Both the position numbers and the translations under genes were made by a program. Below, in pieces: positions 1-13,979 of a stretch of DNA of 23,557 nucleotides. A model generated the notes under the pieces. It ran no database searches, was not told where the DNA came from, and saw only the letters and a list, made by a program, of their open reading frames with translations. This DNA is from a virus, in the IMG/VR virus record IMGVR_UViG_3300048839_000092, positions 1 through 23,557 of that record; one strand, written 5' to 3'. Each line of letters begins with the position of its first letter. Position 1 is the stretch's first letter.

Positions 1-870
1 AGGCGAATTTGGTGTTGTCAAACAGCTCAATATTTATTGGAAAGGCAAGGAAACCCCTATCCAAGTCTTGAGGAAACTAGCGAACGATATGGAATTGGAG
101 CAAAGTTAAAAGAAGTAGAAGAGTACTGGGAACGCGGAGTCCAGACATCTGAAATTCCGCGAGATGTACTCGATAAGTATGTCAGACAAGACGTTGATAT
201 TACTTATCAAGTCTATCTTGCACAACAAAAACTAATAAAGCCAAGTCAGCGTACCCTGTTCCGTCTAGCGATGCTAGACCTCCTCTGCCTAGAGGAGCTT
301 GAATGGAACGGCATGCGGTACGACAAGATCGGGATCGAAAAAAAATCAAAAGAAATTGAATCCGAGATCGCCAAACTCCAATCAGAACTTAATCTTTACC
401 ACTCTATACCTAATTTTAACTGGGCTTCTTCTGATCACCTTTCTGCCCTTCTATTTGGTGGGACTATTACTGAGAAAGTAAAGGTCCCTTGCGGACATTA
501 TAAGTCCGGGGCTAAGTCAGGAGAAGTCAAGTATAAAACTGAGGTAGTAGAGCATCACCTACCACGTAGGTACACCCCAAAAAGAACTACTCCGGGAGGA
601 AAATATTCGACTGATGAGTCCTCTTTAGTGGAACTTGATGGCTCAGATCTTGTCAAAGGTATTCTCCGAATAAAAGAACTTGAAAAGCTAAACACCACCT
701 ACTTTCGGGGTCTCTTGGAAAAGACAGAGAAATTCAACTTCGAGCCAGAGTATCTGCATTCTTCGTTTAATCAGTCAGTAACTAAAACAGGTCGGTTATC
801 AAGTACGAAGCCTAATCTGCAAAACAAGCCGGAGGCGCTGGATGAATTTATCATTACAAGATTCAGCTAG
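1..870 (+). CDS. DNA polymerase A-family, N-terminal fragment (3'-5' exonuclease plus thumb), 5' truncated by window edge
   Basis: The reading frame is open from base 1, so the start codon lies outside the window; 289 residues are visible. The first visible part is the end of a 3'-5' exonuclease domain. It contains the ExoIII-type YVRQD motif (YxxxD, about residue 60) and a PSLEE stretch typical of the region before it. The thumb region follows and ends in SVTKTGRLSSTKPNLQNKP, the strongly conserved TGRLSS...NLQN signature that directly precedes palm motif A in PolA enzymes. The frame then stops at TAG 868-870, before motif A. The rest of the polymerase resumes at 1036 as a separate ORF. I see no intein or frameshift signature. 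The fragment is expected to associate with the C-terminal fragment to form one replicative polymerase. Identity as PolA is secure from motifs; the two-subunit nature is inference. Confidence 0.9.
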   Translation, partial: RRIWCCQTAQYLLERQGNPYPSLEETSERYGIGAKLKEVEEYWERGVQTSEIPRDVLDKYVRQDVDITYQVYLAQQKLIKPSQRTLFRLAMLDLLCLEELEWNGMRYDKIGIEKKSKEIESEIAKLQSELNLYHSIPNFNWASSDHLSALLFGGTITEKVKVPCGHYKSGAKSGEVKYKTEVVEHHLPRRYTPKRTTPGGKYSTDESSLVELDGSDLVKGILRIKELEKLNTTYFRGLLEKTEKFNFEPEYLHSSFNQSVTKTGRLSSTKPNLQNKPEALDEFIITRFS

Positions 871-1036
871 GTATACGCAGGCCATAGCTGATATGGCGCA
901 CCTCATAAAGGAGTTTAGTGCCCATGAAGTGATACAAGACTTGAGGGTGTTTTTCCCTGACCAATATGAAGAACTGATAACGGCAGCAAGGGGAGACGAA
1001 AAAAAGAAAAAGATAGCTAGACTATTGGGCTACTAA
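842..1036 (+). CDS. 64-residue protein of unknown function lying between the two polymerase fragments
   Basis: I do not recognise a family. The ORF starts 29 bases before the stop of the polymerase N-fragment, in a different frame. A GGAGG at 831-835 sits 6 bases before its ATG, inside the polymerase coding sequence, so it is very probably translated. Its TAA overlaps the ATG of the polymerase C-fragment (TAATG, 1034-1038), which suggests translational coupling. The protein looks helical and charged, with an aromatic FFPDQYEEL stretch in the middle and a basic KKKK patch near the C-terminus (around residue 56). No homing endonuclease motif (LAGLIDADG, GIY-YIG, HNH) and no Cys/His cluster is visible. 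It could be a polymerase accessory subunit or simply an inserted small gene. Confidence 0.75.
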   Translation: MNLSLQDSARYTQAIADMAHLIKEFSAHEVIQDLRVFFPDQYEELITAARGDEKKKKIARLLGY

Positions 1037-1746
1037 TGCTCGTCAAGGTAGACGCTGCCGGGTTGGAGTGGAGGACTATAGCGTGGTTGTCCAAAGACCC
1101 AGTGGCTATACGAGAACTCAATGACGGGGTTGATACTCATGCAGAGAATCAAACACGCTTTGGATTACCTACTAGACTTATCTCAAAGAGATACCTCTTT
1201 AGAACCATTTATAGAGGCTCTGGGTACGCATTTTCTAAGGACACTGATTTTTCTGTTGTTAGTGACAATCCCGATTATTGGGATAACATCAATCGTAAAT
1301 TTTATGGAAAGTATAAGGGGATAGATGAATGCCATACCCGGTGGGCACAATTAGTAGCAAAGAAACAACCAATAGTCAGTCCGTTGGGCAGGGAGTGGTT
1401 GATTCCGCTGCGCGACGATGGCAAGCTACCGTGGACGACATTAACAAACTATCCAGTACAAGGGACTGGAGCAGACATTGTAATGATAGCGCGTATCAGT
1501 CTGCGACGGAGATTACAAGAATCTGGAAAGCGCTCGTTAATGATATGCACGGTTCACGATGACATTGTTTTAGACTGCCCTACAGAGGAAGTAGATGACG
1601 TAGCCCAAATGTGTTACGGTGTGTTTGACGATATATCCACGAACATATCCCGGATATGGAAAGTAGAAGTTCCTATTAAATTTCCGGGAGAGGTATACAA
1701 AGGAATGAACCTTAAAGACCTAGAGCCAGTAGAGAGGAGACTATGA
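1036..1746 (+). CDS. DNA polymerase A-family, C-terminal fragment (palm and fingers)
   Basis: This 236-residue protein carries the catalytic core missing from the fragment at 1-870. Motif A is VKVDAAGLEWR, with the metal-binding Asp at residue 6. Motif B on the O-helix is R47-x3-K51...Y59, within an LPTR...K...IY..G pattern like that of T7 DNA polymerase. A conserved NYPVQGTGAD follows (138-146). Motif C is VHDD (173-176), with Asp where most PolA enzymes have HDE. The in-frame codon run upstream of ATG 1036 reaches a TAG at 1018-1020, so ATG 1036 is the only sensible start. There is no strong ribosome binding site of its own, so translation probably depends on coupling to the upstream 64-residue ORF. 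It overlaps the next gene by ATGA. Confidence 0.9.
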   Translation: MLVKVDAAGLEWRTIAWLSKDPVAIRELNDGVDTHAENQTRFGLPTRLISKRYLFRTIYRGSGYAFSKDTDFSVVSDNPDYWDNINRKFYGKYKGIDECHTRWAQLVAKKQPIVSPLGREWLIPLRDDGKLPWTTLTNYPVQGTGADIVMIARISLRRRLQESGKRSLMICTVHDDIVLDCPTEEVDDVAQMCYGVFDDISTNISRIWKVEVPIKFPGEVYKGMNLKDLEPVERRL

Positions 1747-2716: not shown

Positions 2717-3483
2717 GTAAAATAGCGTTAATTGACGGGGACATTCTGGCGTATAGGTGTGCTGCTTCTATTCTCCAGACAAAGACAAAGGAAGCTGAAC
2801 CAGATGATCTGGCAATACTTCGATTGGATGAGCTTATGTATCGCGTTCTTAACGATACACAATCAAGTGAATATAAGCTCTTTCTTTCGGGAAGTGAGAA
2901 CTTTCGTAAAATTATATATCCAGCATATAAAGCAAACAGGACACAACCACCTCCCCCCATGCTAGGTCCATGTCAGGAATTTCTCTTGAAGGAGTGGGGT
3001 GCTAAGTTTACTGACGGGTACGAAGCTGATGATGCTATTGGAATAAATCACGATCCAGAAAAGACTATTGTTGTATCTATCGACAAAGACTTAAAGCAGC
3101 TTCCGGGAGAACACTATCACTTTGTAAAACTAGAGTTCGAGATTGTTGACGAAGAGACCGCAGAACTAAACTTTTGGACCCAGATGTTAGTTGGTGACAC
3201 CTCAGATAATGTCAAAGGTGTTGCCGGGATTGGGCCAGTCAAAGCAAAAAGAATACTGGAAGGAAATAGCCAGATGTATGAAACAGTACGCGAGATGTAC
3301 AACGATGACGAACAATTCCTGATGAACTTTCGTCTGTTACGCATTCTCCGTAATCCTATTGAATATGACAACATCCTAAAGGAGATCGAAAATAAAAACA
3401 GCCTCGGCGAAAGCGAAGGGCAGGAATCTCCAGAAGATAGTGGCGCAGAAGATTCTGGAGATTTTTCCATCGCTGTCTCCTGA
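2713..3483 (+). CDS. 5'-3' exonuclease, FEN/PIN family
   Basis: The 256-residue protein has the ordered acidic motifs of the PolI-N/T7 gp6-like 5' nucleases that remove RNA primers or resect DNA. These are D8-G-D10 at the N-terminus, YEADDA with E104, D106 and D107, SIDKD with D124 and D126, and GDTSDN with D162 and D165. A helix-hairpin-helix segment, GVAGIGPVKAKRIL, follows at 169-182. The YKANR arch motif is at 72-76. The last about 30 residues are a Gly/Ser/Glu-rich acidic tail, probably disordered, whose end overlaps the next gene. All metal ligands appear intact, so activity is expected. It is coupled to the preceding small gene by ATGA. Confidence 0.93.
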   Translation: MSKIALIDGDILAYRCAASILQTKTKEAEPDDLAILRLDELMYRVLNDTQSSEYKLFLSGSENFRKIIYPAYKANRTQPPPPMLGPCQEFLLKEWGAKFTDGYEADDAIGINHDPEKTIVVSIDKDLKQLPGEHYHFVKLEFEIVDEETAELNFWTQMLVGDTSDNVKGVAGIGPVKAKRILEGNSQMYETVREMYNDDEQFLMNFRLLRILRNPIEYDNILKEIENKNSLGESEGQESPEDSGAEDSGDFSIAVS

Positions 3484-3757
3484 TGATGTACGTTCTACTT
3501 CAAGTGGAGCGAGCGGACGAGACGTGCTTCTTTCTCAAGCCGCTAAAGCATCGTTTCCGTTTGCCATCGAATGCAAATCTCATGCAAGCTTTTCTGTTTA
3601 TAAACACTACGAACAAGCCAGATCCCACATTGAAGGACCTGAGTTTGCTATGCTCGTTATCAAACAAAATAGATCCGAGCCGCTTGTACTGCTCTCACTA
3701 AACGACTTCATGGAGATATATGGAAGTAAAAAAAGTAATCAAAACCCCAAAGGGTGA
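3440..3757 (+). CDS. Putative PDDEXK-fold nuclease (Holliday-junction-resolvase-like)
   Basis: This 105-residue ORF begins with GTG inside the exonuclease 3' end (44-base overlap). It shows a compact D-ExK pattern: D28 in GRDVLLS, then E44-C-K46 at the end of a strand (FPFAIECK), then a helix with E58-Q59. This is the arrangement of small PDDEXK nucleases such as Hjc-type resolvases. The following strand (FAMLVIKQNRSEPLVLLS) and the terminal helix DFMEIY complete the small alpha/beta fold. Resolvase or recombination nuclease activity fits the replication context. A competing ORF in another frame (from 3483) lacks any such motif, so I chose this one. Confidence 0.65.
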   Translation: MAQKILEIFPSLSPDDVRSTSSGASGRDVLLSQAAKASFPFAIECKSHASFSVYKHYEQARSHIEGPEFAMLVIKQNRSEPLVLLSLNDFMEIYGSKKSNQNPKG

Positions 3758-5004: not shown

Positions 5005-5461
5005 ACTGTTTAAGGTCTTAGCTATGGCGGTTGCCATTGCCGCACCCGCAGAGGGCTTAAGGCAGGCAGCTTACCGGGATTCTGGGGGTATTATAACTAC
5101 GTGTTATGGGTCCACTTCAAATGTACGAGAGGATGTAGTATACTCCATAGAGGAGTGCCACAACAGGCTTAGCCAAGACATGCTGAAAGCCATACACATT
5201 GTAGAGAAGTGTGTGCCCGGTCTACCAGATCATATGCTTGCAGCTTGGGCAGATGCGGTATTTAATATAGGTGAGCGCATAGTATGTGACACAAATACTA
5301 GCACAGCAGCTCGACTGCTCAAAGCAAATAAATTGACCGAGGCTTGTAACGAGCTTCCTAAATGGAACAAGGCCAGAGTTGGCGGATTTCTAGTAGAACT
5401 TCCGGGCCTGACAAAGAGACGAGAACGGGAGAGAGACTTATGTTTGTCTGGAAATACGTAG
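4982..5461 (+). CDS. SAR-type endolysin, GH24 lysozyme (phage P21 R-like)
   Basis: From ATG 4982 the product is 159 residues, the usual length of P21-type lysozymes. The catalytic triad has the family spacing: E24-x8-D33-x5-T39 (AEGLRQAAYRD then IITTCYG). The C-terminal block WNKARVGG...LPGLTKRRERERDLCL is the conserved GH24 end. Residues about 9-23 are a short, weakly hydrophobic, Ala-rich segment, as in signal-anchor-release enzymes that are secreted by Sec and activated on leaving the membrane. The frame is open further upstream to a TTG at 4877, but that part lies over another ORF and has no ribosome binding site, so I reject the 194-residue version. It overlaps the spanin gene by 22 bases and degrades murein at lysis. 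Confidence 0.85.
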   Translation: MNPATAVRLFKVLAMAVAIAAPAEGLRQAAYRDSGGIITTCYGSTSNVREDVVYSIEECHNRLSQDMLKAIHIVEKCVPGLPDHMLAAWADAVFNIGERIVCDTNTSTAARLLKANKLTEACNELPKWNKARVGGFLVELPGLTKRRERERDLCLSGNT

Positions 5462-8972: not shown

Positions 8973-9276
8973 CAATAAACCTCCGAAGTTCTGTCATCCG
9001 TTTCATAAACGACTTCTCGTTAGTTTTCTTATAATGGGCAAGCCTATTTTGTAGATAGGTTACGTGGTTTGTGGAGTTCTTGAGAAAAGATTCGGCAAGC
9101 TTGGGTCCGTGGCATACTGTAGTGTCTAACATACAGGCGGCTAACGGAAGGCCAAGATCATCCCACTCATCTTTCCAATACATGTCGTAATACATTTGAA
9201 CTGCCTGTTGAGGCTTTAAGTCGGCTATGTATTCGTGCTCTAACACAAAAGGGATTATTTGGTGGTATAAACTCAT
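8950..9276 (-). CDS. Shortened GH108/peptidoglycan-hydrolase-like protein
   Basis: The 108-residue protein matches the order of motifs in the GH108 (ZliS-like) N-acetylmuramidase family, but with a gap. An N-terminal FVLEHE could represent the start of the catalytic helix. It then jumps straight to AVQMYYDMYW, the family's Y..YW region, then LPLAACMLDTTVCHGPKLAES (family: D..VN.G...A), LQNRLAHYKK, and FMKRMTELRRFI (family: F..GW..R...L). The segment that normally holds HEGGY..DP.D.GG.T is missing, so muramidase activity is doubtful. It overlaps the giant ejection protein gene by ATGA, suggesting a virion or ejection-apparatus role. An unrelated helical protein is the alternative. Confidence 0.45.
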   Translation of the reverse strand: MSLYHQIIPFVLEHEYIADLKPQQAVQMYYDMYWKDEWDDLGLPLAACMLDTTVCHGPKLAESFLKNSTNHVTYLQNRLAHYKKTNEKSFMKRMTELRRFIDGQAQTN

Positions 9277-12200
9277 TGTTTTAGTCTGGTTATAAATGCA
9301 TCCACAGCCGGCTTAGATTTGTTGTTTGCTGCTTCGGCTAGTCTGTCTAGGTAAGTTCTATGGCGGTTCTTCCAATCTCTATCTAGCTGAGCTTGGGCCG
9401 CTAGAGTATCTGGATCACCTCCCCATTCTATATATCTGGTAATCAATTTTGCAGAGTATTCCGGGCTGTTTAGGATGATGTTTCCTCGGAAAGTATCGGC
9501 AATCTTTTGTCGTTGTTGGTCAGCAAAGGTGTTCTTCTTCTTTGCTTGAAAATCCTTCTCTCTATACAAAGCTTCGTCCGTGCTACGGAATCCAAACATA
9601 CGCTTGTTAGAATCTGACTTTGTTCTTGGATACTGTCCACCACCCCTAGCAGGGTCTTTTGTAGATTGTACGTAAGCGCCGTCTTTCATTCCGGGCATAA
9701 ATTCCTCATAAATACCACGAAGCGCGGGCGGTGTGACGTTATATCCTGCCGCAAGAGCGTCCGATTTATCACCCCCAGATGTAAGGTACTTACCAACTTC
9801 CAAAATACCGGATGCTACGTCCCAACCAACATTTACGTATGGGAACAAGTCTCTAAAAGTCTCTACTGGATTTAGTGGGTCTACTGGTAGAATGTCCGCT
9901 TGGCTAAATCGAGTGTATATGTTATAACCAGACAGTGAGGATACTGGACCGACAGATACCAACTCTGGAGTTTGCAGTATTAGCCCCTTTAAGGAAAACT
10001 CCTCTACTTTTCTCGGCAGTGGTCGAAACTCTCTGACCATCGCCTTTGCCAGATCTATTAGTTTATCAGCTTCGTCAATACCGATAAAGCCAACCAATCC
10101 TCCCATAGCATACGTAGTTGCCAAGAAATAGAACAGGGGCATTGGATTACCATTTTGAGCCTTCAAGACATTTGAGTATAGCTGAGAATAATAGTTGAAT
10201 TTGAATCCAGTAAAAGTATTAAGGGCATGGCCCGTAAGACCCATGTAGTCAAATATAGCAGCACGCTCCTGTGGTCGGTAATCAACCATAGTATAGTTCG
10301 TGGCTTCCTCCGCCTTTCTAAGTAGCGCCAACCTACCATCTGCTGTATCTGCAAATTTACCTGACTGGCTTAGATGTGATACAAAGCTTGCAAATGCCGC
10401 CGTTCTTGCCAACTTCTCGGTAAGTACGACGTTAAAGGAAGAATATTTAGTGACATCCGATGCTATTTTGGGCATCTTCAAATCCATGATGTCTGTCGTA
10501 GGATTGATGTCTATCATCCCGTTAGCTTCCATATACGCAAACATATCTTTTGCCAACGGATTTGCGTTGTCCCAAACAAAACTTTGTTTGGTAAAAGCAG
10601 CTTCGCCTTCTATTAGACCTGCTTGGGCAAGAAAAGCAAACGTGTCTTGTTGTGTTTTTACTGGATTATGAGAATATCCGTTAAAAGACAAGTCATTGTG
10701 TTTTGCAGCAGTAAATATAGGCTGCATCATTTGGGCCAAACTAAAAGGAAGGTTTCCCATACCTAGAGTATGGGCATAAAAACCACCCTTAGACATTCCA
10801 AGAGAAGACTCTAGTGTTTTTGTGCTGGTCCCTAATGCATAAGCAAGTCCATTTTCCATTGTGCTAAAGAAGTCTTTTGACCCCAAACCTGCATGACGGC
10901 GAGCATAAACAGTAGCCCATTTAGCAACATTAGGGTGTCCCTTTGTAAACTCCTCGTCTGACAAAAGCTTTCGTGCATCTGTCATAGACCTTTGGTACGA
11001 AGCCCACATATATGCATTCCGCATATACTCAATCTGCTGAATGAACATATCCCGAGCATCAGAGGCACTGTCTCCAACCAGCCTACGAGCAATGAATGAG
11101 TTGTCATCATTAGCCCAAGGACGATTGCCTCTCCAACCCTGAGTTCCACTCTTCTTCATGAAGTGCTTTTCTTGCTGACCAATATCGACAGTACGAAGAG
11201 CAGCCTCCTCTTTCAAGGCTTCCCTGATTTCCTTTGCTGCGATACTATCGCTGTCCAATAAAGACAAGATATCCGCGTACATCGAACGGAAAGGTGAACT
11301 ATCTCCTTTACCACCAACATAGCGGATTTGGTCTACTATATACTTGTTCTCGTCTATAAGACCTTTCTGCTTGAGGTACTTTAAAGCGTGATTAGCTGCA
11401 TACCTATTGTTCTCTTTAATATAGGTTACGACTTTTCCACGTTGAGGTCTGCCTTTCTCGTCAAATACACGCTCATAGATTCCGATAGTCCAAGGCCCAT
11501 TCCAGCGGTGTGAAATATAGGCTTGTTCGTAAGGAATCTCAGGAAGCTGTAGTTTTTTACGTTCTTCATTTTGCATGGTCCACGTATCGTCTAAAGCCTT
11601 CCTGAAAGGTTCATAGACTTCGACGATCTGTTGTGGTACTCCAGCTCTAGTAAGCTCCTCACTAGAGAACCTACTCTTACGCTTTGACTCCTCTACAAAG
11701 ATCTTTTGCATAATCTTCACAGCTTTGTCGTTACGCAGGAAAGGCTTTAGTTGCTCTTCCAGAGGGCGGACGACTTCACGGTTATAATATTGTCCTTTCT
11801 TCCACCCTGAGTCCATTAGTTTATGGAACCAGAGTACAATAGGATTGCCGTTATTGTGTTCAGCTACAGCAAGAGCACCGGGAGCAAACGAAGAGGTCTT
11901 TCCTATGTCAGGATGAGCCTTTAGCTCCTCTAGTTTGGCAGGAGTAAGTGGCTCTGCTTCAGGGATTAACTGAACTCCCTTAATGCCTGCTTTCTCAAAT
12001 ACAGATTGTTTCTTGTCTATGTCAAGCTTTGGCTTGATAGATTCCAGCTCAGCACGCTCTCGATTGACTTCAGCAATAAAGTCATCGGAGCTTTTACGCC
12101 AGCTACGGGTAAGGCTTAGAAACTTTTGCTTGGCCTTATACGGGTCCCAAGTTCCCTTAGCCCCACCACGTTGTGATTTAAGCACGCCTTGTGGGGGAGT

Positions 12201-13979
12201 TTCTCCATAAGTCCTGAAAATCCTTTCCGGAAACTTAAGAATATATTCCCCATCTTCCGATTTAATAGCGGAGAACTTTTGAGTATTCCAACGGGTAGGT
12301 TCTCCCTTCTCCAGAATAATACGAACTGGGTATTTATCTACACCAAGTTCCTTAAAGATATCCCCACGGTGTCTCCCTTCGTGGCCAAAGACCTCAACCC
12401 TGCTAGGATTGTTAGGATCTACGCCCACCATAAGATATGGGATGTCCGCTAGTCCGCGGCTTGAGTTAATACCTGTGCGAATCTCTGCTCGTTTTTGGTC
12501 AAGAGTACCTGTCTTGTCTCCAGCCGTATTCATATAATGAGCTGGACGTTTAATGGACAGTTTATGAAAATCGTCAGCACTCAACCAAACAAGTGTTTCT
12601 CTTGAGTTTGGGTTACGTGCGTTTCTTTCCGCAACCTCCATTTCCCAAACATCAAACGTACCTCTGAATCTATTCCAAGTAGCCTCATCTCCTAATTTCC
12701 TGAGCATGTCAGCTACCTTTCCTATACCCAATAGGTCAGGATGAATTGCTCCACTTTGTTTGGTTAAAGCAGCAACTCTCTTAACAGACTCGTTATAGTC
12801 TTTTACGCTAGTTGGCGTATCTCCAAGCTCAGCGCGCTCTTTTTGTAGCTGATCAAGTTTTCCATATTCAGAGTCTAAAAGCTTATTCTCTAAACCTACA
12901 TTTTCTGAAGTTCTTCCTGCCTTCCACGACTCGGCAAAATCTTCGATGTTTTCGATACGCCCATACTGATCCGTTATACGAGATTCGGCACCTTCGATAG
13001 AAGTACGCAGTGGGGACTGTACATCGGCGTCAAACAAACCCAACTGACCGTCAATCCCTGTTTCCATATTCTGTTCAAGTCGAGTAACTTCCCCGCCAAT
13101 ATCAAAGGGATTTACTCTACCTGTCGTATCTACAATAGGAGGCTCTAGCGGAAGATCTAGTTGACGTTGCGGAATAGGTTGCGGAGCAGAAGGCTCTGGT
13201 TCTGGGGGTTGTCTAATATTTTCTAAATTCTTACCTACTTGCTTTGGATCTACATCTATCTTAGATTTTGATTTTTTACTGTGATCTGCAAGAATATAAG
13301 AAGGTACAATATCTACTACTCGTTGAATCCAATATTCTTGAGAAGTTGGTGTAAATTGTTCCTGCGCCTTTTCGTACTCAGACAGAATTTGACGAGCAAT
13401 TTCATCAGCAGCAACTCCACTAACCAAATTGGTAATGACGGAAACAACTGGTTTTAGTAGAGGAATGGCTGCCATTGCTCCCATACCGCCAATTTGAACT
13501 TGGGCGACAGTAGTTGCTTTTTCAGGAGAAACTCCCTCATCCATAAGTCTCTTTTGAAGCATTGTGGAGCCGCCTAAAATACCCGGCACTGCTGTCATAG
13601 GACCACCGCCAATAACAGGCAAAACTGCGGCCGTGGACTCTAAAGCTTGCCCAGCAAATGACTTCGGAGGAGACCAAGCCTTTTCAATCATTGTTTGGCT
13701 TAACTTTAACTCTTGCTCTGCTTTATTACGAAGTTCATCGGCACGCTCTTGATTGCCAAACAGCTTATTTGAAGTTGCTTGTAACTGCCTACCCCCATAA
13801 ACAATAGAAGCTAATCCACTTGCTAAACCTCTAGGTACAGCTCTACCCATACCTTCATACCAAGGTGTTTCTGGAGGACGTTGCTTATGGAATTCGTTAG
13901 CCCATGCCCAAGCAGTTTGCTCGTCAGGGGCATCGACGTCGTATTCCTTACCCTCAACTGTAACTACGAAAGGTTTCAT
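9273..13979 (-). CDS. Giant internal virion / ejection protein, 1568 residues
   Basis: The gene accounts for a fifth of the window and lies in the late operon after the tail genes, where podoviruses encode large ejection proteins (T7 gp16-like position). The N-terminus (1-30) has a beta-type segment, KEYDVDAPDEQTAWAWANEF. Hydrophobic Gly/Ala-rich stretches follow at about 110-210 and again near 1275-1300, suitable for membrane insertion during DNA entry. A Pro-rich linker is near 255-285. At about 528-560 a VEVFGHEGRHRGDIFKELG patch resembles ParB-like/polyvalent-protein domains. The rest is largely helical and charged, and the C-terminal 140 residues are basic and Lys-rich. No transglycosylase motif was found by eye. 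Overlap with both neighbours is ATGA. Role is inferred from size, position and composition. Confidence 0.7.
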   Translation of the reverse strand: MKPFVVTVEGKEYDVDAPDEQTAWAWANEFHKQRPPETPWYEGMGRAVPRGLASGLASIVYGGRQLQATSNKLFGNQERADELRNKAEQELKLSQTMIEKAWSPPKSFAGQALESTAAVLPVIGGGPMTAVPGILGGSTMLQKRLMDEGVSPEKATTVAQVQIGGMGAMAAIPLLKPVVSVITNLVSGVAADEIARQILSEYEKAQEQFTPTSQEYWIQRVVDIVPSYILADHSKKSKSKIDVDPKQVGKNLENIRQPPEPEPSAPQPIPQRQLDLPLEPPIVDTTGRVNPFDIGGEVTRLEQNMETGIDGQLGLFDADVQSPLRTSIEGAESRITDQYGRIENIEDFAESWKAGRTSENVGLENKLLDSEYGKLDQLQKERAELGDTPTSVKDYNESVKRVAALTKQSGAIHPDLLGIGKVADMLRKLGDEATWNRFRGTFDVWEMEVAERNARNPNSRETLVWLSADDFHKLSIKRPAHYMNTAGDKTGTLDQKRAEIRTGINSSRGLADIPYLMVGVDPNNPSRVEVFGHEGRHRGDIFKELGVDKYPVRIILEKGEPTRWNTQKFSAIKSEDGEYILKFPERIFRTYGETPPQGVLKSQRGGAKGTWDPYKAKQKFLSLTRSWRKSSDDFIAEVNRERAELESIKPKLDIDKKQSVFEKAGIKGVQLIPEAEPLTPAKLEELKAHPDIGKTSSFAPGALAVAEHNNGNPIVLWFHKLMDSGWKKGQYYNREVVRPLEEQLKPFLRNDKAVKIMQKIFVEESKRKSRFSSEELTRAGVPQQIVEVYEPFRKALDDTWTMQNEERKKLQLPEIPYEQAYISHRWNGPWTIGIYERVFDEKGRPQRGKVVTYIKENNRYAANHALKYLKQKGLIDENKYIVDQIRYVGGKGDSSPFRSMYADILSLLDSDSIAAKEIREALKEEAALRTVDIGQQEKHFMKKSGTQGWRGNRPWANDDNSFIARRLVGDSASDARDMFIQQIEYMRNAYMWASYQRSMTDARKLLSDEEFTKGHPNVAKWATVYARRHAGLGSKDFFSTMENGLAYALGTSTKTLESSLGMSKGGFYAHTLGMGNLPFSLAQMMQPIFTAAKHNDLSFNGYSHNPVKTQQDTFAFLAQAGLIEGEAAFTKQSFVWDNANPLAKDMFAYMEANGMIDINPTTDIMDLKMPKIASDVTKYSSFNVVLTEKLARTAAFASFVSHLSQSGKFADTADGRLALLRKAEEATNYTMVDYRPQERAAIFDYMGLTGHALNTFTGFKFNYYSQLYSNVLKAQNGNPMPLFYFLATTYAMGGLVGFIGIDEADKLIDLAKAMVREFRPLPRKVEEFSLKGLILQTPELVSVGPVSSLSGYNIYTRFSQADILPVDPLNPVETFRDLFPYVNVGWDVASGILEVGKYLTSGGDKSDALAAGYNVTPPALRGIYEEFMPGMKDGAYVQSTKDPARGGGQYPRTKSDSNKRMFGFRSTDEALYREKDFQAKKKNTFADQQRQKIADTFRGNIILNSPEYSAKLITRYIEWGGDPDTLAAQAQLDRDWKNRHRTYLDRLAEAANNKSKPAVDAFITRLKQ

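Follow-up and report, generated by a model that had tools for sequence, protein, structure and literature searches.

The replicative family A DNA polymerase of the phage studied here is, with a probability that we put at roughly 0.87, an enzyme made of two chains. The window, by which we mean the whole stretch of DNA that was analysed, is a linear virus record of 23,557 bp (an IMG/VR phage contig, 23.6 kb), and its polymerase is encoded by two genes at the left end of the contig, polA-N and polA-C, with a small gene in the slot between them (Table 1). We infer that PolA-N would contribute the exonuclease, the thumb and one palm strand, and PolA-C motif A, the fingers and the remaining palm, and that the two chains, translated from separate, close or overlapping genes, would reassemble in vivo at the palm sheet. 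The structural model, the co-divergence of the halves and the phylogeny fit an ancestral two-chain enzyme.

Table 1. Features of the split polymerase locus (positions on the window)
Feature	Position	Strand	Description
polA-N	1..870	+	3'-5' exonuclease, thumb, first part of palm; 5' end open at contig end
polA-N stop TAG	868..870	+	
polA-C	1036..1746	+	ATG 1036 to TGA 1746, 236 aa; carries motif A, the fingers (motif B) and the remaining palm (motif C)
Motif A core DAAGLEW	1051..1071	+	catalytic Asp codon 1051-1053
Small slot gene	842..1036	+	ATG 842 to TAA 1036, 64 aa; matched by a profile built without the window
GGAGG ribosome-binding site of slot gene	831..835	+	inside polA-N, 6 nt before ATG 842

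Two complementary polymerase genes in the window

The Pfam DNA_pol_A matches of the two products are complementary and together cover the domain. PolA-N matched PF00476 at E 6e-21 over profile positions 5-132 of 381, as well as phrog_9556 at E 3.5e-48, while polA-C matched the same Pfam profile at E 3.5e-21 over positions 154-359 of 381, as well as phrog_17 and phrog_2573. The C-terminal end of polA-N is TGRLSSTKPNLQNKPEALDEFIITRFS, with the tail IITRFS before the stop and in register with 119 relatives, and polA-C begins with MLVKVDAAGLEW, at motif A. Alignment to relatives showed that motifs A, B and C are all present (VDAAGLEW, KRYLFRTIY and TVHDDIVLD), motif A being uninterrupted in the window, also at 1065/1066, to which the site of the frame-breaking indels in some relatives is equivalent. 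These results confirm the initial annotation, made from the sequence alone, in placing the split just before motif A with all catalytic motifs kept, and its count of 16 residues between NLQNKP and motif A was approximately right.

The structures were predicted as single read-through chains encoded by the window or by the locus itself, and thus speak for compatibility of the halves and not for their binding. AlphaFold returned a pLDDT of 85.8 and a pTM of 0.81 for the window N part, read-through linker and C part, with only residues 291-341 (the linker) below 50 and disordered, and a pLDDT of 92.5 and a pTM of 0.89 for a relative (L013) in which the one TAA between N and C was read through. The window model superposed on Bst Pol I with a TM of 0.70 over about 600 columns; modelled as one chain, the halves fold as a Klenow-type polymerase. 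The segment with the SRF/SRY end lies on one side of the break and the motif A strand, predicted at 380-388 in L013, on the other, so that neither chain has the complete palm and a working site would be expected to need both.

The halves are separated by 165 nt in the window and are there in the same frame. We found no Pfam match to an intein or Hint domain in the window, and stops lie on both sides of the gap, so that an intein was ruled out, in agreement with the initial annotation, which had seen no intein ends. Neither a tRNA nor, even at E<=1, an Rfam RNA was found in the window, and thus no group I RNA in the gap. An endonuclease gene is likewise absent from the window's break, the gap holding the 64-aa slot gene alone.

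Elsewhere in the window, a 105-aa ORF with a GTG start (3440-3757) resembles phage Holliday junction resolvase/PDDEXK proteins (phrog_244, E 2e-11; PF24608, E 5e-5), and the longest ORF, of 1568 aa, lies on the minus strand at 9273-13979.

A constant break across the clade

Several hundred loci were collected by IMG/VR profile searches, about 390 were retrieved, and their six-frame ORFs were scored with N and C profiles; the loci were drawn by similarity to the split fragments, so that the sampling favours the split clade. A single-protein search with the window C fragment in viral contigs gave no match, and alignments were needed instead. Among the roughly 390 loci, an intact gene was present only in HMO-2011, which differs in this from the window, and in one HMO-2011-type locus (L443). 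The five closest genomes revealed by protein searches in phage records are all split. The halves overlap by one base in Alcaligenes phage QDWS535, flank a 77-codon ORF in MEP401 and MEP402 and an R67-type dihydrofolate reductase ORF in MW202697, and are 3.6 kb apart in MW202796, with several genes including a cytosine methyltransferase between them. PHROGs also contains families that consist of one polymerase half alone.

The break residue is constant in the 119 distinct loci in which both ends are readable: the N part stops a few residues after S/T-R/K-[YFW] and the C part starts with M-x-x-x-DA, a few of these loci having an N part that ends earlier owing to an intron. The window conforms to this pattern, with its N stop after SR[YFW] and its own C start at M-x-x-x-DA. 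Such an identical junction is far beyond chance, and it agrees with the earlier view that the split is not a sequencing error. A decaying or misassembled gene could be suspected from a single contig in which polA-N is cut at the contig end. Considering that the same junction recurs throughout these loci, including the sequenced isolates MEP401, MEP402 and Alcaligenes phage QDWS535, and that the catalytic motifs are kept, we give this explanation next to no weight.

The gap, on the contrary, is free in length, frame and content. It ranges from -17 to 3598 nt with a median of 210 (17 loci overlapping, 6 with 0-30 nt, 22 with 31-100, 41 with 101-300, 25 with 301-1000 and 8 with more than 1 kb), and the relative frames of N and C are distributed 41/34/44. 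These data bear on two ways in which a single polypeptide could still be made. In one, left open in the description of MEP401-type phages (PMC10580990), a self-splicing intron lies between the halves and the spliced RNA encodes one chain. Group I introns do exist in some relatives, between SSSKP and NLQN (L193, L196, L024, L015) and at motif B (L131), with Rfam RF00028 at E 3e-5 to 0.02, and the halves are in the same frame in the window. Against this, the window has no Rfam match and a coding family takes up its gap, relatives with gaps of -17, -1 or 0 nt could not accommodate an intron, the frames are random across relatives, and where a true group I intron sits at the SSSKP-NLQN site the polA-N stop is unchanged at the SRY/SKY end beyond it. 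Because the gap runs from overlap to several kilobases and occurs in all frames, an intron is excluded as the general cause, and for the window itself we consider it very improbable. Group I introns accompanied by HNH ORFs were noticed within these polymerase genes in L015, L024, L133, L193 and L196 (N site) and in L131 (motif B), all below the Rfam gathering score; that of L133 was judged from its HNH ORF and position, with no Rfam match.

In the other, programmed frameshifting, bypass or readthrough fuses N and C across the 165 nt. This idea draws on relatives whose halves overlap by 1-17 nt or are separated by a single stop codon, the latter being the case in three loci. PolA-C has its own ATG in 110/123 rows, however, and gaps of up to 3.6 kb with several genes and random frames are hard to reconcile with such a fusion, which is thus highly improbable.

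The two halves have evolved together, as the N and C distances correlate with a Mantel r of 0.89 (0/999 permutations). In the tree, a branch with 100/100 support separates 81 split genes from three intact ones, and the window falls on the split side, grouping with L009 and L236. The split is, judging from these data, a single old event common to the whole clade. The root of the tree, and hence the reading as fission rather than fusion, rests on intact genes being the general rule among family A polymerases. A two-subunit enzyme, which the initial annotation had thought likely, is therefore supported by a break that is fixed across the clade, a gap that is not, and halves that co-diverge and fold together in prediction.

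The split is not unique to the window phage and has already been reported for MEP401-type phages. The 2023 study assigned the exonuclease and N part to ORF13 and the C part to ORF15, with a small ORF between them whose role was left open, and considered an intron (PMC10580990). The MEP401/MEP402 polymerase has the same split as that of the window, with homologous fragments 35-39% identical; different from that study, we found the break across a broader clade, in which some gaps shrink to overlaps, and excluded an intron as the general cause. The split was thus known in outline, and its clade-wide extent and non-intron cause are new here.

Other phage replication enzymes also come as two chains after an insertion in a critical region, namely the gp43A/gp43B polymerase of Aeromonas phages and the MobE-split nrdA of Aeh1, whose enzyme was reported active (PMC2988022), but these concern other enzyme families and break points, the Aeromonas split being in a family B polymerase. 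The polymerase of Vibrio phage ICP2 (Zobellviridae) also has an interruption ahead of motif A that contains an HNH ORF, but its break lies about 10 residues earlier (N ends NLQNISN, and the ISRF strand is on C). In the tree it groups with the intact polymerases, at the end of a long branch, and its break may be a separate fission. In its record (L008, 4885-6254) the gene is annotated as a two-exon join, the HNH ORF overlaps both parts, and Rfam found no intron at gathering score.

The slot and its genes

The initial annotation had described the 165 bases between the halves as other coding sequence. The region is indeed coding, but it is not arbitrary, as it corresponds to a conserved slot gene, which overlaps polA-N by 29 nt and the polA-C start by 1 nt (TAATG). 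When a profile was built from L023 and L033, two relatives, and the window was left out, it matched the window 64-aa ORF at E 6.9e-11. The family comprised 63 ORFs: 52 were flanked by polA-N on one side and polA-C on the other, 8 came from loci that do not have both halves, and 3 were counted elsewhere; each of the latter three begins within the slot or extends over its edge, and none is clearly outside. The slot protein may be a third subunit. The L023/L033 profile did not recover the slot ORF of MEP401/402, which may belong to a different family from that of the window. An earlier profile combining the window and MEP401/402 small ORFs (A3) was discarded, since it mixes two small-protein families.

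The slot is a cargo position inside an essential gene pair. Its contents in other loci include a T7 gp5.9-type RecBCD inhibitor (L018, 786-1058; PF25708, E 2e-20), R67 DHFR (L004), a 2OG oxygenase (L043), a cytosine methyltransferase (L003) and an HTH protein. In L004, which is MW202697, the beginning of polA-C (5074-5090) is shifted out of frame by one base where five A occur in a row, and the GenBank CDS starts late, probably reflecting an assembly error.

Some relatives, and not the window, carry in this slot an HNH homing endonuclease of phrog_3322 (E about 1e-30 to 1e-36), with its gene ending 22-40 nt ahead of the Glu codon of motif A; HNH genes of the phrog_374 family also occur in relatives' slots. 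The same endonuclease family, phrog_3322, is found inside the split RNR of phage CRP-7. Considering these relatives, we infer that the old fission most likely began with the insertion of a free-standing homing endonuclease directly ahead of its own target in motif A, and that the slot would later have been taken by other small genes, often of the family found in the window.

Motif A indels as candidate ribosome-hop sites

In relatives bearing the endonuclease, motif A itself is disrupted by a frame-breaking indel, always at one site, DAx(Q/A/G)L|E|W. The indel accompanied phrog_3322 in 12/12 distinct genes, against 0/228 uninterrupted genes (Fisher 8e-14), and at the level of 90% clusters the comparison was 10 v 0 (5e-10), both statistics ignoring relatedness. 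A second draw of loci with the endonuclease as query added new alleles and no exception. About 12 further distinct genes have a motif A indel without phrog_3322, among them L017, with another HNH gene at the same place. Indels were seen in L022, L023, L096, L135, L188, L190, L200, L207, L217, L225, L364, L483 and others, most with a preceding hairpin. One locus first flagged as disrupted, L143, was withdrawn, as its start misfitted the search pattern and its motif A is continuous. From the annotations of the endonuclease-bearing isolates Klebsiella P5026 and IME346, Methylophilaceae P19250A, KBS-S-2A and S-EIVl we recognised no recoded polymerase.

The indels measure -1, +1, +2, +4, +6, +7, +8 or +10 nt. 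Usually the inserts hold a stop, and the +6 class, the only multiple of three, always contains one. In each insertion allele, the exact DAxxLEW sequence is regained when the insert is skipped. Take-off and landing codons are matched in L200 (CUU UAG CUU), L135 (CUG UAA CUG), L096 and L087 (CUU..CUU) and L188 (CAA..CAG), and near-cognate or unmatched in the other indel loci; a prfB-like CUU UGA occurs in L022 and L023, and a slippery A AAG in L364 and L401. A search for motif A carrying a TAG insert, with an exact DNA pattern, gave 16 matches; 3 of them were polymerases, including L483 as a new one, and the others were chance matches or belonged to a different sequence that is not a polymerase.

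We also looked at the 48 nt before the insert, where a hairpin was found, with the end of its 3' arm at the take-off codon or close by. The median z was -1.2, compared to 0.1 in 138 uninterrupted clusters (p 9e-9), and stems of >=7 bp were present in 12/21 recoded loci versus 2/138 uninterrupted clusters, the 21 loci excluding L004, whose +1 is probably an A-run assembly error. The signal was absent in windows shifted by >=48 nt, and the stem sequences are lineage-specific.

By their architecture, the indels resemble sites at which ribosomes hop naturally, of the kind known from T4 gene 39/60. The T4 topoisomerase genes 39/60 are split by MobA and involve a 50-nt bypass (PMC5009743, PMC2988022), with a stop after the take-off codon, matched codons and a 5' hairpin in gene 60 (PMC5009743). 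Both systems have an essential replication gene that a homing endonuclease has split, most likely so in the case of the polymerase. In the relatives studied here, the endonuclease gene has close behind it a short insert that ribosomes would need to bypass, and a stop following the take-off codon and a hairpin on the 5' side are frequent. On the other hand, the gene here is a family A polymerase and not a topoisomerase, the indels span -1 to +10 nt where T4 has 50, the tree has no fewer than 13 separate changes, and the window has neither endonuclease nor insert.

The indels could instead be sequencing errors or dead alleles, considering that small indels at one spot are expected from a mis-repaired endonuclease cut and that the +1 of L004 falls within an A run. 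This is unlikely, however, as the same allele appears across several metagenomes and codon differences downstream are mostly synonymous (42:7 for L225 v L226, and 70:35 and 35:15 in other pairs). In addition, no second C gene was found in 17 records with a motif A indel, the alleles are scattered on the tree (16 changes, at least 13 of them on supported branches), and a hairpin lies directly before the indel in these loci only.

We consider it probable, with strong statistical and structural support, that the slot preceding motif A serves as a homing locus, in which endonucleases arrive together with a target-destroying indel that ribosomes hop over, helped by the hairpin at the take-off codon. 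As homing endonucleases aim at sequences that the phage cannot change, protection would come from inserts that translation skips. These loci would constitute a second, much larger natural set of mobile bypass cassettes resembling T4 gene 60 and would include the first natural stop-hops, which were unknown to a 2016 review (PMC5009743). In the open-licence literature we found no earlier report of bypass in a phage polymerase.

In conclusion, a whole clade stably keeps a break that separates two adjacent palm segments immediately ahead of the catalytic aspartate, which suggests that two chains can together form the active site of a polymerase. Such an arrangement would offer a natural template for conditional or split polymerases, and the slot suggests how polymerase splits can arise. 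Moreover, should translation proceed across the motif A inserts, these would provide a ready-made collection of minimal bypass signals, natural stop-hops among them, with which the conditions for ribosome hopping would be directly testable.
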